Of a DNA stretch of 52,609 nt, positions 460 through 48,644 are shown in pieces. Origin of the DNA: Bacteroidota bacterium (lineage in GTDB: Bacteria; Bacteroidota; Bacteroidia; Bacteroidales; UBA6013); the NCBI GenBank assembly GCA_020048645.1, contig JAIFMG010000039.1, positions 1 through 52,609 of the forward strand, read 5' to 3'. The position numbers and the translations under genes are program-made. The notes below the pieces were generated by a model, which was not told the DNA's origin, made no database searches, and was given only the letters and a program-made list of their open reading frames with translations. The first letter of the stretch is position 1, and every line of letters begins with the position of its first letter.

Positions 460-620
460 AACCCGGCTGTTCCGCCCATCCCGAAGGGATGGAATGTGGA
501 TAGCCCCGGATGAAATCCGGGGAGCAGCGAACCGCCGCGAACCAGACCCCCGCGGGGGTTCAATGCGAAAACAAAGACGTTTCAAGGCTGTCTATCACGC
601 TGGATGAAATGTGGGCACAA
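460..620. repeat. Interspersed repeat family 2, copy 1
   Basis: This segment is closely similar in sequence and order to 18019-18190. Both contain a CATCCCGAAGGGATG hairpin, then GATGAAATCC inside a CCGG stem, then AACCGCCGCGAACCAGA, then a GGGGTT-ended hairpin. Two copies about 17.5 kb apart, both beside minus-strand gene ends, show a dispersed non-coding repeat. No transposase is nearby. Confidence 0.7.
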
Positions 621-654
621 CATGGCATCCCCCCCCCGAAGGCAAGCGGCCATG

Positions 655-709
655 AAAAAGCCTCGCCCAATGCCACCGCCCGCGGACGGGCGGCGGCATT
701 GGGCGGGGC
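655..709 (-). terminator. Rho-independent-type terminator
   Basis: Read on the minus strand, CCCAATGCC and CCGCCCG pair with CGGGCGG and GGCATTGGG around a 4-nt loop, with one internal mismatch. A short T run (complement of 655-659) follows. It sits just after the stop of the SPOR-like gene and would end the minus-strand unit that includes rnr. Confidence 0.6.
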
Positions 710-15981: not shown

Positions 15982-17970
15982 ATGAGCGACATCTTCCAAG
16001 TCACCCTCCTCGACCGCGCCTTCGCCCGGGAAGGCGCGGAACCGGCCCCCGCGACCGCCGAGCTGCGCCTGGTCGAGCCCGACGGCACCGAGCGCCGGAT
16101 CACCCTCGGCCACTTCGGCCAGGACCAGATCGACCAGCAGCTCGCCAAGGGGCAGCTCGACCTGGCCGGATGCCTGGTGCTCGACTTCTCCCTGGCGCGC
16201 TTCCGAGCGCGGGCGGGCCTGCCTTCCGACGAGCACACCCGCCTGGAACGGCTGCGCTGCCCGGGGGCCTTCTTCCTGAACCAGCCCGGCATCCCCATCG
16301 ACTGGAGCCGGATCCACCTGGAGGCCGAGCGGGCCGACTTCCATGGCGCCACCTTCGCCGGCGCGCCCCTGCGCTTCGACCACGCCCTGCTCCAGACCCG
16401 CGAGACCGACTTCGAGGGCGCCCGCTTCCGCTGCGCGCTGGCCAGCTTCGCCGACGCGGGCCTCGGCCTGGGCGCCGTCTCGTTCAAGAACGCCGCCTTC
16501 GGCCCCGGCAAGAAGGACTTCGGCAGGGCCAGGTTCGCCGGCCAGGAGGCCAACTTCGCCAACGTCGAGTTCTCCGACGGCGAGACCTCCTTCTCCCACG
16601 CCGCCTTCGCCGGCAAGGCCAACTTCAAGATCGCCCGCTTCGGGCAGGGAAAGGTCGATTTCGGGCACTGCCGATTCGGCGACGGAGGGCTGGAGTTCGA
16701 ACTGGCCACCTTCGGCCCCGGCAAGGTCAACTTCCGCGAGGCCTCCTTCGGCAAAGGCAGCCGCGGCTTCGACCGCACCCGCTTCGAGTGCCAGGAGCTC
16801 AACTTCATGGACTGCCGCTTCGCCGACGGCAGCCTCAGCTTCGTCAACGCCCAGTTCGGCGACTGCAAGCTCAACTTCAAGCAGGCCCAGTTCGGCGACG
16901 GACCCATCGACTTCCACTACTCCGACTTCGGCCACGCCGAGCTCAACTTCGACCGCGCCTACTTTGGCCGCGGCGAGATCAGCTTCAAGGCCATCGAGTG
17001 CCAGTCGGGCAAGATCTCCTTCAGCCGGGCCCGCTTCGGCGAGGGCCGGATCGATTTCCAAGGCATCAAGCTCCGGGGCGGACGCGTCAGCTTCAGGCGC
17101 TCATCATTCGAGCGCGGCGAGCTCGACTTCTCGGGCGCCGAGCTCGAGCAGGCCGAGGTCCTCTTCGAAGACCTCGACTTCGCCCAGCGCGGCGCCACCT
17201 TCGAGACGGCCCGCCTGGGCAGCCTGGCCTTCGACCGCTGCCAGTTCAGCGCGTTCGTCAACCTCAAGCCCAGCCACTGCGGCGAGCTCCGCCTCAACGA
17301 CTGCCTCATCCGCGACATCATCGACATGCGCCCCGGCGGCGCCAGCGTCCAGATAGACCGGCTCGACCTGTTCGGCACCCGGCTCCTGGGCAAGCTCTTC
17401 CTCGACTGGAAGGCCAACCGGCTCGAGGCCCTCATCCACCAGCAAGACCGCGGCCACCGCGAGAAGGCCGAGCAGTTCCGCACCCTCAAGGAGAGCTTCA
17501 ACCAGACCGGGCGCTACAACGACGAGGACCGGGCCTACGTGGCCTTCAAGCGGCAGGAGCAGATCGCGCAGCTCAAAGAGGCCAACGCCGCCAGGCCCGC
17601 CACCCGGCCCCTCAACCTGGCCAGCTACGCCTTCAAGTGGCTCGTCTTCGACAAGATGGGCGAGTTCGCGACCAACCCCGTCCGCGTTTTCGCCAGCATG
17701 TTCGCCGTTTACGTGCTCTTCAGCCTGGTCTATATCGTCTTGCCCCTGCTCGGCGTCCAGACCGACATCGTCTCGTCGATTGGCGACCCCGACAAGCTCT
17801 CGCTCGTGGCCAAATCGTTCTACCACAGCGCGATAACCTACCTGACCATCGGCTATGGCGACTACTACCCCTCGGGCGTCAACCGCACCATCTCCGCCTT
17901 CGAGGGCTTCATGGGCATCTTCATGATGGCCTACTTCACCGTGGCCTTCGTCCGCAAGATCCTCCGCTGA
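15982..17970 (+). CDS. Potassium-channel-like protein with long 12-residue-repeat solenoid
   Basis: This 662-residue protein has two parts. Residues about 117-415 are some two dozen tandem copies of a 12-residue unit, roughly F-G-x-G-x-h-x-F-x-x-A-x (h hydrophobic). An 11-residue unit near 209-219 is the only clear length break. The period is 36 bp in DNA. The pattern resembles the Phe-rich pentapeptide-3-type repeats but is not a 5-residue period. Residues about 475-540 are a charged linker. The C-terminus has a TM helix (about 568-591), a pore loop with the K+ selectivity filter TIGYGDYYP (622-630) and a second TM helix (about 637-658), as in two-TM channels. The solenoid is presumably a cytoplasmic sensor or tether. 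It stands alone on the plus strand. Confidence 0.85.
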   Translation: MSDIFQVTLLDRAFAREGAEPAPATAELRLVEPDGTERRITLGHFGQDQIDQQLAKGQLDLAGCLVLDFSLARFRARAGLPSDEHTRLERLRCPGAFFLNQPGIPIDWSRIHLEAERADFHGATFAGAPLRFDHALLQTRETDFEGARFRCALASFADAGLGLGAVSFKNAAFGPGKKDFGRARFAGQEANFANVEFSDGETSFSHAAFAGKANFKIARFGQGKVDFGHCRFGDGGLEFELATFGPGKVNFREASFGKGSRGFDRTRFECQELNFMDCRFADGSLSFVNAQFGDCKLNFKQAQFGDGPIDFHYSDFGHAELNFDRAYFGRGEISFKAIECQSGKISFSRARFGEGRIDFQGIKLRGGRVSFRRSSFERGELDFSGAELEQAEVLFEDLDFAQRGATFETARLGSLAFDRCQFSAFVNLKPSHCGELRLNDCLIRDIIDMRPGGASVQIDRLDLFGTRLLGKLFLDWKANRLEALIHQQDRGHREKAEQFRTLKESFNQTGRYNDEDRAYVAFKRQEQIAQLKEANAARPATRPLNLASYAFKWLVFDKMGEFATNPVRVFASMFAVYVLFSLVYIVLPLLGVQTDIVSSIGDPDKLSLVAKSFYHSAITYLTIGYGDYYPSGVNRTISAFEGFMGIFMMAYFTVAFVRKILR

Positions 17971-39422: not shown

Positions 39423-39938
39423 ATGATGACAGAAGAACATATAAAAGAGGCTTTATCATTAAGGTACATAGAATTGGTTGCCGCCTTTAATGGTTACAAA
39501 ACAAGTTCTTCGTATCCTGATTATGGAACTGATTTAGAAATCAAAGAGATTGATTTTCGTATTGAAAACCAGCATAAAAGATATTTTGAAACTGGTAGAG
39601 AATTAAAATTCCAATTAAAAGCAACAACGGAAAATTCAATAGTTATTGAAGAAGAAGCTCTTAAATACGATTTAAATTCATCAACGTATAATGATTTGCT
39701 TTCAAGGAAAAAAACTAAATGTCCCCTGATTTTAATTTTATTTGTTCTTCCATCAGACAAATCAAATTGGTTGAACATTTCTGATAACGAATTAATTACA
39801 AGGAAATGTGCATACTGGTATTTTCCAGATAAAGCAGAATTATTAACACCCAATTTTGCCACAAAGAGGATTTCAATCAGTAAAAACAATTTTATTTCTA
39901 ATGATACACTAAATCAATTATTTGATAATTACTCATAA
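39423..39938 (+). CDS. DUF4365-domain protein (PD-(D/E)XK-like nuclease fold)
   Basis: This 171-residue protein fits DUF4365. The core has Glu17 in YIELVAAFNG, Asp37 in YPDYGTDLEI and Gln64-x-Lys66 in GRELKFQLKAT, the D...(E/Q)xK arrangement of a restriction-like nuclease. The later NLNSSTYNDLLSRKK-like region and the strand PLILILFVLP are also family-like. AT-rich codons differ strongly from the surroundings, indicating transfer. It is coupled to the next gene by TAATG (1-nt overlap). Such nuclease-like proteins with a coupled partner in islands are often anti-phage or addiction systems, but nothing in the sequence proves that here. Confidence 0.85.
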   Translation: MMTEEHIKEALSLRYIELVAAFNGYKTSSSYPDYGTDLEIKEIDFRIENQHKRYFETGRELKFQLKATTENSIVIEEEALKYDLNSSTYNDLLSRKKTKCPLILILFVLPSDKSNWLNISDNELITRKCAYWYFPDKAELLTPNFATKRISISKNNFISNDTLNQLFDNYS

Positions 39939-41032
39939 TGAAGAACCAATTAATATATAAAAATATTACAGACCTGTTAATAAGCAGAGATTGGAAAAAA
40001 CAGGAAGTTAGAACAAAATATGATTTATTTGTTCCGCCTTCAAAACTGGGTTTTTCTGATACCTATAAATTATACATTTACAATAAATATGAAAATTCAG
40101 ATTACGAGAGAGAAATTTTAAAAAATTTAAATATTGTTTCACAAATTTACAGTGAAGATATAGACGAATTGGCTTCAATAATCATCGAGGACAGGCAAAT
40201 ATTATCATTCCATATAGAGAACGAAAATATAAAAAATGGACACCCAAGTATTCCATTTTTTAATACACTGATTAACAAATCAAAAGAATTATTACAGGAA
40301 GTAGCAAATTTTTCGGTCATTAAACAACCTCATTTTTTTGACAGCAAAGATGAAGCAGAAAGATACTTGAATTATTGTAACTTTTTCAAAAATGATGCTG
40401 GTAGTTTAATTACAAAAATACAATTGCCAAATAATGAAGAGATAAAAGAAAAAACTCTTTTTGAAAATTCAATAATTGGCAGAGAAATAAATCTGAACTT
40501 GATCAACATTACCGAATTCATCAATACAGAAATAATTGGTTCTGATAATTTTGAGCCCACCAATGTTTTTTTAATTCAAAATAGGGATTTAGTAAGTGTA
40601 AATGTATCAAATAAATTAAAAGATTTATACACTGGCATTGAATATGCGGATATTGAAATTTCTCTAAAAGGAACTCAAATAAACCAAATAACTACTGCCA
40701 AAGAATTGAATAGAGAAAAGGTGAATAATTTGAGCACATTTTCAAAAACAATTCGTGAAAAAATGAAAGAAATATCCGAAAACGATGTTTATGGCAAGAT
40801 TGTTCAATTGAAATCAAAAGACGTTGATAGCGACCAAAATATGATACTAATTGAAGGCGAAATCAAAAAGGTTAGATCAAAAATTTCAGTAAAATTAAAT
40901 TCAGATCAAATTAAATTGGCTGCCGACGCTTTTAAAAATAATAGAACAGTTTTGATCAATGCTATTTTAGAAAAAGACAAAACGCAATACAAAGTAGTAG
41001 AATTAAAAGACTTTAAAACATTAACAAAATAA
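39938..41032 (+). CDS. Partner protein of the DUF4365 gene, family not recognised
   Basis: This 364-residue protein has no signal or TM segment. The N-terminal 120 residues include VPPSKLGFSDTYKLYIYNKY and SEDIDELASIIIEDRQILSF; the middle has an Asn/Glu-rich helical stretch with SLITKIQLPN; the C-terminus (about 270-360) may be an OB or beta-rich domain (YGKIVQLKSKDVDSDQNM). It is AT-rich and starts at the ATG of TAATG, so its translation depends on the DUF4365 gene. It could be an effector, immunity protein or nucleic-acid sensor; I cannot tell. It ends right at the inverted-repeat boundary AACGTCATAGC. Confidence 0.8.
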   Translation: MKNQLIYKNITDLLISRDWKKQEVRTKYDLFVPPSKLGFSDTYKLYIYNKYENSDYEREILKNLNIVSQIYSEDIDELASIIIEDRQILSFHIENENIKNGHPSIPFFNTLINKSKELLQEVANFSVIKQPHFFDSKDEAERYLNYCNFFKNDAGSLITKIQLPNNEEIKEKTLFENSIIGREINLNLINITEFINTEIIGSDNFEPTNVFLIQNRDLVSVNVSNKLKDLYTGIEYADIEISLKGTQINQITTAKELNREKVNNLSTFSKTIREKMKEISENDVYGKIVQLKSKDVDSDQNMILIEGEIKKVRSKISVKLNSDQIKLAADAFKNNRTVLINAILEKDKTQYKVVELKDFKTLTK

Positions 41033-41291
41033 AACGTCATAGCATATGTTAATCTGACCATGTTGACTTTCTGTCTATTACACGAACTTTGTACTTTCAA
41101 ATAGGTTGTTTGGAAAGACTGGCCACCGCCTACAAATTCCACCCCCACACGTTCCAGAGGCTCGAACGTTTTCCGCGAGCTTGAGGCTATCGGTGGCTTA
41201 GGTTTTTCTAATGAAAACCAATGGCTTGGGCCTTGGCAAAGCAGCACCAGGCCGCAGCCCGCACAAAAGCCAGAAAAAACCGCCAAGGCGC

Positions 41292-41322
41292 TTGTTTTTT
41301 CAAAGTACAGTTTGTACCTTTG
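41292..41322 (+). promoter_or_regulatory. Promoter-like element in leader copy B
   Basis: TTG (41292-41294), 20-nt spacer, TACCTTTG (41315-41322), an exact fit to the -7 consensus. Transcription would start near 41329, 15 nt before the short open frame at 41344. Confidence 0.5.
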
Positions 41323-41343
41323 GCCATAGTCAATCCCCACCCG

Positions 41344-41463
41344 ATGATCAAGCTACCCTCCAAAACCGTCGATGTCCAATCTCAAAGCAGGCAGCCATAC
41401 TTCCAAAACCTGTCGATTCGAAAGTTTGACGGATTGATGCGGCTTCTGGTGGTGTGCATTTAA
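41344..41463 (+). CDS. Short open frame (possible leader peptide)
   Basis: This 39-codon frame encodes a peptide with a basic middle and hydrophobic end (SIRKFDGLMRLLVVCI). In leader copy A the same frame reads PIRMLDGLVRLLEVCVS before a stop at the same point, so the reading frame is kept while the DNA has diverged. That favours translation, but copy A has no in-frame ATG at the equivalent place. It starts 22 nt after a promoter-like box. Confidence 0.3.
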   Translation: MIKLPSKTVDVQSQSRQPYFQNLSIRKFDGLMRLLVVCI

Positions 41464-41697
41464 TTCTTAATGCACAATTGTGCTTTTGGGTAGGAATTGA
41501 AGATGGTGGAAGCAATGACATTACAGGTTATTTTAAGTCGATAGTGCAGAAGATACAAAAGGGAAAAAAAGATATGACAATAAACGGCGAATGGTATTTT
41601 CCTGAATTGAATAGTTCCTATTTTGGAATATTTATCAAAGAAAATACAACCATAAAACTAATAACCGAAATTACGTTACGGACAAAACTTATATCAA

Positions 41698-41973
41698 ATG
41701 GAATTTGAATGGGACGAAAATAAAAATAAACTGAATCAAGATAAACACGGCATTGATTTTAACGATGCCAAAGAAGTTTTTAAAGATGAAAACCGTACAT
41801 TGTCGGAAGACAATAGATTTGATTATAGGGAAAAACGTTGGATAACAGTTGGTATAGTTGCAAATGTTTTCCTTACTGTTGTTTATACAATCAGAGATGC
41901 CATCAGATTAATTTCTGCAAGGCGTTCTAATCGTAAAGAAAGACAAGAATATAACAACAAAAAATCGAAATAA
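41698..41973 (+). CDS. brnT: BrnT-type toxin (ribonuclease)
   Basis: This 91-residue protein starts MEFEWDENKNKLNQDKHGIDF and contains DAKEVFKDENR and RRSNRKERQEY near its end, the DUF497/BrnT pattern of a RelE-fold ribonuclease toxin. BrnT cleaves RNA and is neutralised by BrnA. It is AT-rich like the DUF4365 cassette. Its antitoxin starts 1 nt after its stop. A longer frame upstream from 41454 overlaps the start but lacks family features. Confidence 0.85.
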   Translation: MEFEWDENKNKLNQDKHGIDFNDAKEVFKDENRTLSEDNRFDYREKRWITVGIVANVFLTVVYTIRDAIRLISARRSNRKERQEYNNKKSK

Positions 41974-41974
41974 A

Positions 41975-42358
41975 ATGGAAACAACAAAAATATATTGGAA
42001 AACCATTCTTGAAATGATAAAAAATGGTGAAACAGTAGAAAATATTGAAGTAGAATTCAATAGCGAAACATTGTTATGGAACGATGCCATGATATTAGGT
42101 AAACATGGAATACAAGTTCCGCAAGAATTTATTGATTACGATGACGATAATATTGATTACAGCGACAACCCGGAAATTACCGATGAAGATATTGCAGCAG
42201 GAAAAATAAAGTGGATACGGAAAGCTGAAATTCCTTTGCATAAAGAAGTTGAAGATTGGATTAAAAAGGAAAAAATTGATTTTAATGCCTTGGTTGCAGA
42301 ATTGGTTGAAAATTTTTACAAAACGCTTAAAAATATTCCCAAAAACGCTGCACTATAA
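41975..42358 (+). CDS. brnA: BrnA-like antitoxin
   Basis: This 127-residue protein has the acidic EITDEDIAAGKIKWIRKAEI and a C-terminal helical region KEVEDWIKKEKIDFNALVAELV that fits the ribbon-helix-helix DNA-binding and dimerising part of BrnA. It is longer than many BrnA proteins because of an N-terminal about 60 residues with LWNDAMILGKHGIQVPQ. The gene order toxin then antitoxin is the usual one for brnTA. BrnA also represses the operon. The stop TAA lies inside the boundary repeat CTATAACG. Confidence 0.75.
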   Translation: METTKIYWKTILEMIKNGETVENIEVEFNSETLLWNDAMILGKHGIQVPQEFIDYDDDNIDYSDNPEITDEDIAAGKIKWIRKAEIPLHKEVEDWIKKEKIDFNALVAELVENFYKTLKNIPKNAAL

Positions 42359-46100: not shown

Positions 46101-47261
46101 CCGAACCTTCTGCCGGCCGGCGTGGAGGCCATCGAGATCCGCGGCGGCCATGCCGAGGACTTCTCGCTGGCCACGCCTTTCGAGCCGATGGTGGTCGCGG
46201 CGCGGTCGGCGGCGGACGTCGAGTTCCGCTTCCGGCCCAAGGTGGCGGGCCAGCGCTCGGCGCAGGTCTGGCTGATGGGCCCGATGGACACGCTGCGGGT
46301 GGAAATCCGGGGCAAGGCCGTCAGCCCCAGCCTGCGCTTCGAGGCCGTGGTGGACTTCGGCAAGCGGGTGCCGCTGTTCGAGACCGACACGCTGGCGCTG
46401 CGGGTCAGCAACAGCTCCAGCCAGCCCGTGCGGCTGGACAGCGTGGTGAACGCGGGGCCGAACGCCAGCCAGTTCAGGCTGCTCCTGCCGGGCGGGCCCG
46501 TGAGCATCGGCAGCCAGCAGAGCCTGGAGATTCCCGTGGTGTTCGCGCCGACGGTGCGGGGCTTCAGCTCGGGCAGCTTCGAGCTGTGGGCCAACGGCAT
46601 CGACCTGCCGCAGACGGTGCAGACCTTCGGCGAGGGCGTCGGGCAGCGCGCGGTGGAGGTGGCCGGACGGCTGACGGACCAGCGCGACGGGCGCCCGCTG
46701 GAGGCCGTGGTGAGCGTCTTCGACCTGGAGACCGGGCGCGAGCTGGCCCGCGAGGAAGCGGAGGGCCAATACAGCCTGAGCGTGAACGCCGACCGGCAGT
46801 ACGCTGTCGTGGTGGCCAAGGAGGGCTACCTGGCCGTGAGCGAGAGCCTGGACCTGCGGCAGCCGACCCAGGCCGCGACGCAGGCGCTCGACGTGGAGGT
46901 GCCACCCTTCGCGGTGGGCTCGCGCATCGTGCTGAACAACGTCTTCTTCGAGACGGGCAAGGCCGCGCTGGACCCCGCCTCGGAGCTGGAGCTGCGGCGC
47001 GTCGCGGCGCTGCTGGCCGAGCATCCGGCCCTGCGCGTCGAGATCGGCGGGCACACCGACAGCGTGGGCACTGACGCCATCAACCTGCCGCTCTCGCAAA
47101 ACCGGGCCAACGCCGTGCGCGACTACCTGCTGCGGCAGGGCGTGCCGGCCAGCCGCCTGGTGGCCAAGGGCTACGCGGCGGCCAAGCCCATCGCCCCGAA
47201 CCACACGCCCGAGGGCCGGCAGCGCAACCGCCGGGTGGAGTTCCTGATCCTGGAGCTTTAG
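43152..47261 (+). CDS. 1369-residue vWA - WD40 - OmpA fusion protein
   Basis: Signal peptide (about 1-19). A vWA domain follows with MIDAS motif AIDVSGSMDG (Asp89, Ser91, Ser93) to about 270. Then a Kre9/KNH-like Ig module with HPNGGELFAVG (about 405-475). A WD40 propeller (about 485-935) has repeats such as LAFSPDGGALLTGSSD and ending WD. Then two Hydin/ASPM-like Ig modules (about 955-1160), a carboxypeptidase-regulatory-like beta sandwich (about 1167-1235) and a C-terminal OmpA domain (about 1262-1369) with GGHTDSVG and NLPLSQNRANAVRDYL. The OmpA part binds peptidoglycan and the rest faces the periplasm or surface. ATG 43152 is set by the signal peptide. It converges with the MscS gene (4-nt overlap). 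Confidence 0.9.
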   Translation: MKHLPLTFFFLLISSLAWGQHVSLSGIQADSYPEMSAQFLALDARGRQIFDLKPSDLQLVENGRPVAVAAVQCPPAAEPLPLSVVLAIDVSGSMDGARVLMAQQAALAFARAAPMDLTEIALTSFDDRSYLNTDFTNSYERVAQAIVDLRARGGTNYQLGFLQGISGALETARRGRHKRVVVFLTDGLSEAAPEGIIRLAQELRATVYCLAIQMDVPPVLAQVAHATGGKVYGRVNDAEQGKRVYLEILQEAQGIRPCRVTWRATPNCRPEQRYTLTALGRSASLDFRLPDEKVPALQATPSQLSFLPGEPGTRQVLPVRLTARAMPFDLRAIRPSDPQMRVLQPERLPARLAPGQSLDLQVAFDPSQAGAFSRFLLENNLCPESYFYANTAGQAPTGTARSPLRVKHPNGGELFAVGTQTTIEWEGIGPGDPVALHYSDDLGRSWHPVATDTGLVYEWKLPPLPGERYLVRVDQVAQLSARPYAYERERFFSEILFGAEGKRMLTLSPHGRADLWNLRDGKSLAGSDAALRVAFAPSGRWAAVLGRDKALAVLDALSGDTLWHQAGTGLFAFSPTEDRVACTLSDKELALRQLASGQQLVIKTTKALARVEFSPDGTRLLTVDADGVAQVWDSRDGRELMRDKGREPLEQALFLAGGQRLVVARGQTLFFWDASSGALASEWTDAKKIEQLFASQDGRTLWAKTWEALWAFDPGTGEATLSADCPSFAVSADGRVAFAQVRKDSVAGLWDARAGRSLATLSHAGGQVQALAFSPDGGALLTGSSDYVHAPVGARQSIRPSDKIARIWDTRTGQMLAQMQGHTGAVTGGAFSPDGLLVATFSLDSTARVWDRTSGQPVVVLRGHQEPVLGAYFAPDGRTLVTLGSDNTAKAWDVLTGRLLKDLAGHSSDLLDAFFSPDNAFLVTRSFGMSIVWPELRQEVLQTDQSDGPFRLADSPLAVSPIDMGTIFVGQSLDRRIAGWLRNPNLLPAGVEAIEIRGGHAEDFSLATPFEPMVVAARSAADVEFRFRPKVAGQRSAQVWLMGPMDTLRVEIRGKAVSPSLRFEAVVDFGKRVPLFETDTLALRVSNSSSQPVRLDSVVNAGPNASQFRLLLPGGPVSIGSQQSLEIPVVFAPTVRGFSSGSFELWANGIDLPQTVQTFGEGVGQRAVEVAGRLTDQRDGRPLEAVVSVFDLETGRELAREEAEGQYSLSVNADRQYAVVVAKEGYLAVSESLDLRQPTQAATQALDVEVPPFAVGSRIVLNNVFFETGKAALDPASELELRRVAALLAEHPALRVEIGGHTDSVGTDAINLPLSQNRANAVRDYLLRQGVPASRLVAKGYAAAKPIAPNHTPEGRQRNRRVEFLILEL

Positions 47262-48586
47262 CGGGGGTCGCGTAGGACGCGGAAGTCGGATCCGGTGGGG
47301 TTCTGGAAGACGTTGAGGTCGAACTCGTTGACGGAGGCCAGGATGTGGTCGAAGATGTCGGCCTGGATGTCTTCGTACTCGGGCCATGAAGTGGTGCGGG
47401 TGAAGACGTAGATTTCGATGGGGATGCCGGTCTCGCCGGGTGCGAGCTGGCGCACCAGGAAGGTGAAGCCGTCGTGGAGCTGGTTGTTCTGGCGCAGAAA
47501 CAGCTCGAGGTACTTGCGGAAGGTGCCCAGGTTGGTCAGCCGGGCGCGGTTGACCAGGGATCCCCCGACCTCGATGCCGGCGGCCTGGTTGTGCTGGGCC
47601 AGCTCATTCTCCTTGTGGAGGATGTAGGGGCGCAGGATGTGTATCTGCTTGAAGCGATCGAGCAGGGCTTGGTCGCAGAAGCGGACGCTGTTGATGTCGA
47701 TGTGGACGGCCCGCTTGATGCGGCGGCCTCCGGCGTGCTGCATTCCCTTCCAGTTGGTGAAGGACTCGGAGACCAGGGCATAGGTGGGGATGGTGCTGAT
47801 GGTCTTGTCGAAGTTCTGGACCTTGACGGTGCTCAGGGAGATGTCGAGCACGTCGCCGTCGGCCCCGCGGCTGGGCATGGAGATCCAGTCGCCGCGCTTG
47901 ACCATCCGGTAGGCCGAGAGCTGGATGCTGGCCACGAAGCCCAGGATGGTGTCCTTGAAGACGAGCATGAGCACGGCGGCCAGGGCGCCCAGGCCGGTGA
48001 GCAGCTTCCCGGGCGACTGGCCGAGCAGCTCCGAGAAGATGAGGATGCCGGCCACGGAGATGACCACGATGTTGACCACTTGGCGGAGGGTGTGCAGGTA
48101 GCCGGAGATGCTCAAGGCCGTCTCTTCGTGGTCCATGGACTCGCGGCTGCCGGACTTGTCGTCCTTGTGCCGGTTCTCGACGACCTTCTGGAAGATTTCG
48201 GCCATGGCGTTGACGAAGGACTGGGCCACCACGAGCAGGACGATGACCATATAGATGTAGGCCATGGACTGGATGACCTGCACGAGCCTTTGGTCGTCGA
48301 AGGCCCAGGCGATGCCGTAGTAGAAGATCAGCCCGGGCACCAGGTGCGAGAGGCGGCTGAAGACCCTGTTCTCGAGGAAGACGTCGTCGTAGGTGTTCTT
48401 GCTCCGTTCGATGAGGCGGGTGACGACCCTGACGATGATCTTCTTGGTCAAGAAGTTGGCCAGCAGGGCCACGCAGGCCAGGCAGACCACCAGAATGGCC
48501 ACGTTGAGCGACTCTGCGGTATGGGGCCGGACACCCCAGCCTTGCAGAACCTTCTCGAAACTCGCGCTGATCTTCTCTGCTTGCAT
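47258..48586 (-). CDS. MscS-family mechanosensitive channel (YbdG-like)
   Basis: This 442-residue protein has five or so TM segments from about 30 to 235. The pore-lining TM3 is LTGLGALAAVLMLVFKDTILGFVAS. The cytoplasmic beta domain follows with KRGDWISMPSRGADGDVLDI and TVKVQNFDKTISTIPTYAL. Length and insertion resemble YbdG-type MscM. It protects against osmotic downshock. ATG 48586 fits the family; the frame extends through a hairpin to 48643. The stop overlaps the convergent OmpA-fusion gene by 4 nt. Confidence 0.92.
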   Translation of the reverse strand: MQAEKISASFEKVLQGWGVRPHTAESLNVAILVVCLACVALLANFLTKKIIVRVVTRLIERSKNTYDDVFLENRVFSRLSHLVPGLIFYYGIAWAFDDQRLVQVIQSMAYIYMVIVLLVVAQSFVNAMAEIFQKVVENRHKDDKSGSRESMDHEETALSISGYLHTLRQVVNIVVISVAGILIFSELLGQSPGKLLTGLGALAAVLMLVFKDTILGFVASIQLSAYRMVKRGDWISMPSRGADGDVLDISLSTVKVQNFDKTISTIPTYALVSESFTNWKGMQHAGGRRIKRAVHIDINSVRFCDQALLDRFKQIHILRPYILHKENELAQHNQAAGIEVGGSLVNRARLTNLGTFRKYLELFLRQNNQLHDGFTFLVRQLAPGETGIPIEIYVFTRTTSWPEYEDIQADIFDHILASVNEFDLNVFQNPTGSDFRVLRDPR

Positions 48587-48610
48587 GGTTCGTTCGTTTT
48601 GATGGAGGGA

Positions 48611-48644
48611 AATGCCCCGGCAAGCGCGGGCTTGCCGGGGCATT
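48611..48644 (-). terminator. Perfect 14-bp hairpin between efflux adaptor and MscS genes
   Basis: AATGCCCCGGCAAG (48611-48624) and CTTGCCGGGGCATT (48631-48644) are exact inverted arms around 6 nt. There is no T run. It follows the adaptor stop on the minus strand and precedes mscS. Confidence 0.5.

Follow-up and report, generated by a model that had tools for sequence, protein, structure and literature searches.

Could a bacterial protein that carries a K+-channel pore behind a long run of short repeats be a channel whose gate is worked by a β-solenoid? The question is raised by an ORF (Table 1) in the window, the whole 52,609-nucleotide stretch of DNA analysed here (contig C145), which belongs to a 4.8 Mb genome in 242 contigs that is 92% complete. 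The reading we prefer, with a probability of roughly 0.6, is that of a two-TM K+-selective channel in which an N-terminal cytosolic β-solenoid acts as the gating domain.

Domain organisation

The ORF list and translation give a protein of 662 residues with an ATG start. Pfam Pentapeptide_3 (PF13576) is the strongest family match, at 58.9 bits against a cut-off of 27 and in five stretches, and Ion_trans_2 matches residues 578–660 at 36.1 bits against a cut-off of 22.5, placing the protein in this pore family with the K+ filter T-x-G-Y-G-D in place. The initial annotation had described a K+-channel pore and a solenoid of 12-residue period in one ORF, and the Pfam matches, the filter and the Phe periodicity uphold it. 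In the AlphaFold model of the full protein (mean pLDDT 89.5) an α/β cap, with strands at residues 5–10, 24–31 and 37–44, helices at 47–55 and 71–78 and a pLDDT mostly of 78–95, precedes the solenoid, and the last residue, R662, follows immediately after M2. The model is that of a monomer without tetramer or membrane, and its pLDDT is 67–76 near the pre-M1 helix and in parts of the pore. A second copy of the gene was not found in the host genome, at its 92% completeness.

Table 1 Features of the solenoid-channel gene, in window coordinates
Feature	Residues	Position	Strand	Basis
Solenoid-channel gene	1–662	15982..17970	+	ORF, Pfam, relatives in 71/393 same-order genomes
N-terminal α/β cap, no Pfam family	1–103	15982..16290	+	AlphaFold
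β-solenoid	104–478	16291..17415	+	Phe spacing, column conservation, AlphaFold of the solenoid alone
12-residue units F-G-x-G-x-h-x-F-x-x-A-x	~113–411	16318–17214	+	Coils beyond are less regular
Conserved polar ladder in solenoid		16879..17097	+	Column conservation, 48 representatives
Helical linker	479–565	17416..17676	+	Helices 481–563 in AlphaFold model; alignments
Linker signature KAEQFRxLKExFxxxGxYxxEDxAYVxFKRxE		~17464–17559	+	Alignments of relatives
Two-TM K+-channel pore		17677..17967	+	Ion_trans_2; conserved filter and C-terminal LR
M1	~566–589			
Pore helix	608–621			
Filter TIGYGD	622–627	17845–17862		
M2	~633–661			

Repeat period and predicted coil of the solenoid

Within residues 110–425 there are 35 pairs of Phe residues at a spacing of 12, compared to a mean of 6.6 (sd 2.2) after shuffling, and across all spacings between 4 and 25 none of 20,000 shuffles gave more than 20 pairs. 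The steps between Phe residues alternate between 5 and 7 along the solenoid. Approximately 25 registers of the 12-residue repeat can be counted over residues 113–411, with one 11-residue slip at 209–219, in agreement with the roughly 24 tandem units estimated at the outset. The corresponding 36-bp period had also been proposed for the DNA, where it is barely visible: Tandem Repeats Finder reports 2.2 copies at 16906–16986 with 73% matches, so the repeat is an old, protein-level one. Recent expansion of a DNA repeat is ruled out, the 36-bp copies being too diverged.

AlphaFold prediction of the solenoid alone (pLDDT 93.6, pTM 0.90) yields strands that recur every 24 residues, with 4- and 5-residue strands alternating between two halves, and the coil is thus predicted to be one of 24 residues built from two 12-residue halves. 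The Rfr fold of pentapeptide-repeat proteins is characterised by a five-residue repeat and 20 residues per coil, whereas here the Phe steps are 5+7, the period is 12/24 and strands recur, in the prediction, at 24. Solved Rfr proteins (HetL, QnrB1, MfpA and NP275-NP276) share with the solenoid a parallel β-solenoid form, core Phe/Leu residues and a related Pfam model, but have the 20-residue coil and match it weakly, with E-values from 0.004 upward and TM-scores of at most 0.34 in the Foldseek list. No PDB entry matched the solenoid at E ≤ 0.001, the sub-threshold matches (E 0.003–0.04) being designed β-1 solenoids, HetL, QnrB1 and MfpA. The suspicion that the geometry departs from the 20-residue pentapeptide coil is therefore largely borne out by the prediction, and the 24-residue coil would represent a fold variant for which we found no solved example.

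The repeat type itself is not new to sequence databases, since Phe repeats of the same 12/24 period and 5 and 7 steps occur in stand-alone proteins of Streptomyces plasmids, annotated as pentapeptide repeat-containing; unlike the window protein, the two examined have no C-terminal pore. We also considered the G-x-G turns as those of an RTX calcium-binding β-roll. That reading was rejected because the fixed Asp that RTX repeats have after the second G is replaced in this protein by K, R, E, P or S.

Distribution and conservation of the family

Among 393 genomes from this order, 71 (in 40 of 206 genera) hold a relative at E ≤ 1e-20, so the gene is no chance ORF; full-length relatives in the order are 33–42% identical. 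Because a phylum-wide sample of 396 genomes returned only the window's own genome, and the single outlying relative, a divergent one, came from a Cloacimonadota MAG, the family appears from these searches to be largely restricted to one order. Phage records gave no match to the protein.

Relatives fall into two size classes, of ~582 and ~665 residues. The segment from F69 to W476 has 321 residues in 27 of 59 relatives and ~404 in the long class, which includes the window protein and lies on one side of a tree branch with support 92/80. The class difference of 84 residues equals seven 12-residue units, or 3.5 coils of 24, an offset that would be tolerated provided that the half-coil is what truly repeats. 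One relative (L043, genome G153) has an internal TAG and a fragment (G062:C31:2673-3101) an internal TAA, reflecting either occasional gene decay or assembly error.

The pore and the region preceding it are strongly conserved. In comparisons of 37–48 divergent relatives, filter residues T622, G624, Y625 and G626 are invariant and D627 varies little if at all; the C-terminal LR is likewise invariant, and full-length relatives end at the identical residue right after M2. Column conservation in 48 representatives places the linker among the most conserved parts of the protein, and in 19 sequences the end of the solenoid and the linker together contain 13 invariant columns. Beyond the linker signature, at the entry to M1, D557, G560, T564, P566 and R568 are conserved. 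No Pfam family or PDB chain has convincing homology to the linker alone. Within the solenoid, conservation picks out a ladder of residues that each follow a core Phe, at positions 300, 312, 324, 336, 348, 360 and 372, together with D310. In order from 300 to 372 the family majority is K, H, E, R, N, E and K. This polar ladder is a candidate binding or contact surface.

Similarity to HalA and other solenoid-pore proteins

Searched with Foldseek, the full model has one PDB hit within E ≤ 0.001, oligodeoxyadenylate-bound HalA (9nyi; probability 1.00, E 1.6e-4), and none at this threshold in a viral structure library. HalA (NCBIfam NF051894) is given as the effector of the Hailong anti-phage system, a DNA-gated channel (Tan et al., Nature 2025, doi 10.1038/s41586-025-09058-z, as cited in PMC12657218 and PMC13275509). 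The alignment covers 327 columns against the 333-residue chain, with an rmsd of 12.3 and a modest TM-score of 0.42 by target length, so the domains are either arranged differently relative to each other or uncertain in their arrangement. NCBIfam likewise yields only one match, the HalA model, and the alignment runs to the final residue of protein and model alike (20 bits, E 3e-4, cut-off 250). Fold comparison and profile give the same order of parts, namely a pentapeptide-like N-terminal part, a linker and a two-TM pore after whose M2 the chain stops at once. The window protein is nevertheless not a Hailong HalA: it scores far under the HalA cut-off, and HalB, the nucleotidyltransferase encoded together with HalA, was not found in the host genome or in 40 carrier genomes. 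It is also about twice as long and is built of 12-residue units, and the HalA profile matches just one of 11 family members. No true HalA above the cut-off was present in the 396 genomes of the phylum sample.

Proteins of Aeromonas and haloarchaea (e.g. WP_227356951.1 and WP_276282428.1) carry a solenoid and a K+-channel pore on a single chain, which likewise stops just past M2, and the profile of the window family matches them at E 7e-12 to 9e-26. Pore similarity extends to the Aeromonas, Halorussus and Haladaptatus proteins and that of the pre-M1 segment to the first two. In contrast to the 12/24 repeat of the window family, their repeat is 5/20 (Aeromonas, Halorussus and Halalkalicoccus) or 11/22 (one Haladaptatus protein). 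The sequences thus draw a picture of a pore-linker chassis that may have been paired with solenoids in three or more pitches. The initial view of a solenoid in control of a K+ pore as something unusual finds no support in these comparisons, as HalA and the haloarchaeal and Aeromonas pentapeptide-repeat/channel proteins already exist; solenoid-pore fusions are known, and it is the predicted 24-residue coil that sets the window family apart. Among two-TM K+ channels, those of the Kir and KcsA type share the pore and filter but have no N-terminal solenoid, and Kir has a C-terminal regulatory domain where the window protein has none. We found no paper on pentapeptide-repeat K+ channels in the open-access literature. 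Another solenoid-channel protein, on Haladaptatus salinisoli plasmid unnamed4 (L134, 1–3876), is encoded ~1.8 kb from a TIR-domain gene, so that this archaeal plasmid locus might have a role in defence.

Putative gating of the pore by the solenoid

In known two-TM K+ channels both chain ends are cytosolic, and by analogy the solenoid would lie inside the cell. Four subunits would then place four solenoids as a cytosolic assembly beneath a K+-conducting pore, each solenoid made of 24-residue coils from two 12-residue half-coils and each coupled to M1 by the conserved helical linker (KAEQFRxLK...EDxAYVxFKR). Since the protein ends after M2 and has no C-terminal regulatory domain, any gating signal must reach the pore via the solenoid and linker. 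Binding of a ligand or protein partner to the polar ladder might alter the packing of solenoid or linker and so open or close the pore, a mode of gating that would resemble that of HalA, whose cytosolic crown gates its pore. The intact pore and filter, nearly invariant across divergent relatives, support this model, and the near-fixed solenoid length in each class, with solenoid, linker and pore kept together, argues for a fixed assembly rather than a loose tether. The strong conservation of the linker, the single significant structural match to HalA and the similar pore and pre-M1 segment of Aeromonas and haloarchaeal proteins also speak for it.

HalA provides the example, in immunity, of a two-TM pore gated by a cytosolic solenoid-type domain. 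With the versions in a large bacterial order and others in Aeromonas and archaea, solenoid-gated K+ channels are suggested to form a wider class, in which solenoid pitch differs by group, and the family offers a system for studying how a β-solenoid passes a signal to a K+ pore. It is a much more speculative and rather doubtful step to see in it order-wide signal-gated K+ channels with a β-solenoid gating ring of unsolved geometry, HalA-like without HalB, using one pore-linker chassis for three or more solenoid pitches (20, 22 and 24 residues) and perhaps sensing DNA metabolism through an AddAB-like neighbour.

Alternative functions and gene neighbourhoods

The similarity to HalA also allows a function in defence, in which a channel held shut by a nucleic acid or nucleotide would be freed by phage activity and would then arrest the cell through loss of K+. 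HalA with DNA as the sole significant structural match, the HalA profile hit and a patchy presence (71 of 393 genomes) would fit such an anti-phage effector, but we consider it improbable given the weak score and the single matching family member. HalB was moreover absent above cut-off from the host genome (92% complete), where partial matches on other contigs reach 30 bits against 190, from 40 carrier genomes at E ≤ 1e-10 in a search without a positive control, and, as was any other NTase, from among the neighbours. Those neighbours are mostly housekeeping genes with no defence island; PADLOC run on 79 neighbour proteins returned mainly a methyltransferase at a single locus and Cas4-like nuclease matches, and a defence-island setting was rejected. 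The solenoid charge is an indirect hint in the same direction, being mostly negative (mean net charge −9 over 59 relatives, −4 in the window protein) and poor for DNA binding.

Alternatively, the solenoid could serve passively, as a tether or scaffold by which a constitutive K+ leak channel is positioned next to a cellular partner, such as the AddAB-like helicase-nuclease encoded upstream in many relatives. Other pentapeptide-repeat solenoids do work by protein binding (review PMC8145042), and our comparison of neighbourhoods for 60 relatives shows that at 11 short-class loci from seven families (L052, L061, L062, L067, L096, L097, L100, L102, L103, L105 and L106) an AddB-like PDDEXK_1 gene precedes the channel gene on the same strand, 3–141 bp upstream, and the genes are frequently arranged as UvrD-type helicase, radical SAM, AddB-like and channel. 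This is so although most of the AddB-like proteins share only 29–45% identity with each other's reference. The adjacency is scattered over the tree, however, and changes at least six times, consistent with an inherited gene order lost repeatedly; we therefore rejected it as proof of function. No AddB-like gene adjoins the channel gene in the window, which has parAB on one side of it and a HAD hydrolase gene on the other, and long-class genes of two families instead adjoin a DUF6272-SiaC gene (L059, L065, L114, L115, L120 and L122), often with a polyphosphate kinase gene on the other side. A tether thus seems unlikely, if somewhat less so than a HalA-type effector. As Hailong reportedly responds to phage DNA exonucleases, a DNA-end-processing neighbour is a lead and not evidence. 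Finally, Pentapeptide_3 as strongest family match could point to a pentapeptide-repeat protein of the ordinary kind whose pore is degenerate and non-functional, yet a filter and flanking residues kept invariant or nearly so in 37–48 relatives, and a C-terminal residue shared by the full-length ones, make this highly improbable. We thus retain the solenoid-gated channel as our reading.

In the window the neighbours of the channel gene include the minus-strand genes parA and parB, the HAD hydrolase gene and a DUF6962 gene. Further along, an AT-rich island at 39423–42358 (GC 0.32 at 40–42 kb against ~0.65 across most of the window) encodes a DUF4365 protein and proteins of 364 and 127 residues without a Pfam family, and was probably acquired horizontally. 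The window also contains an MscS-type mechanosensitive channel gene, at 47258–48643 on the minus strand.
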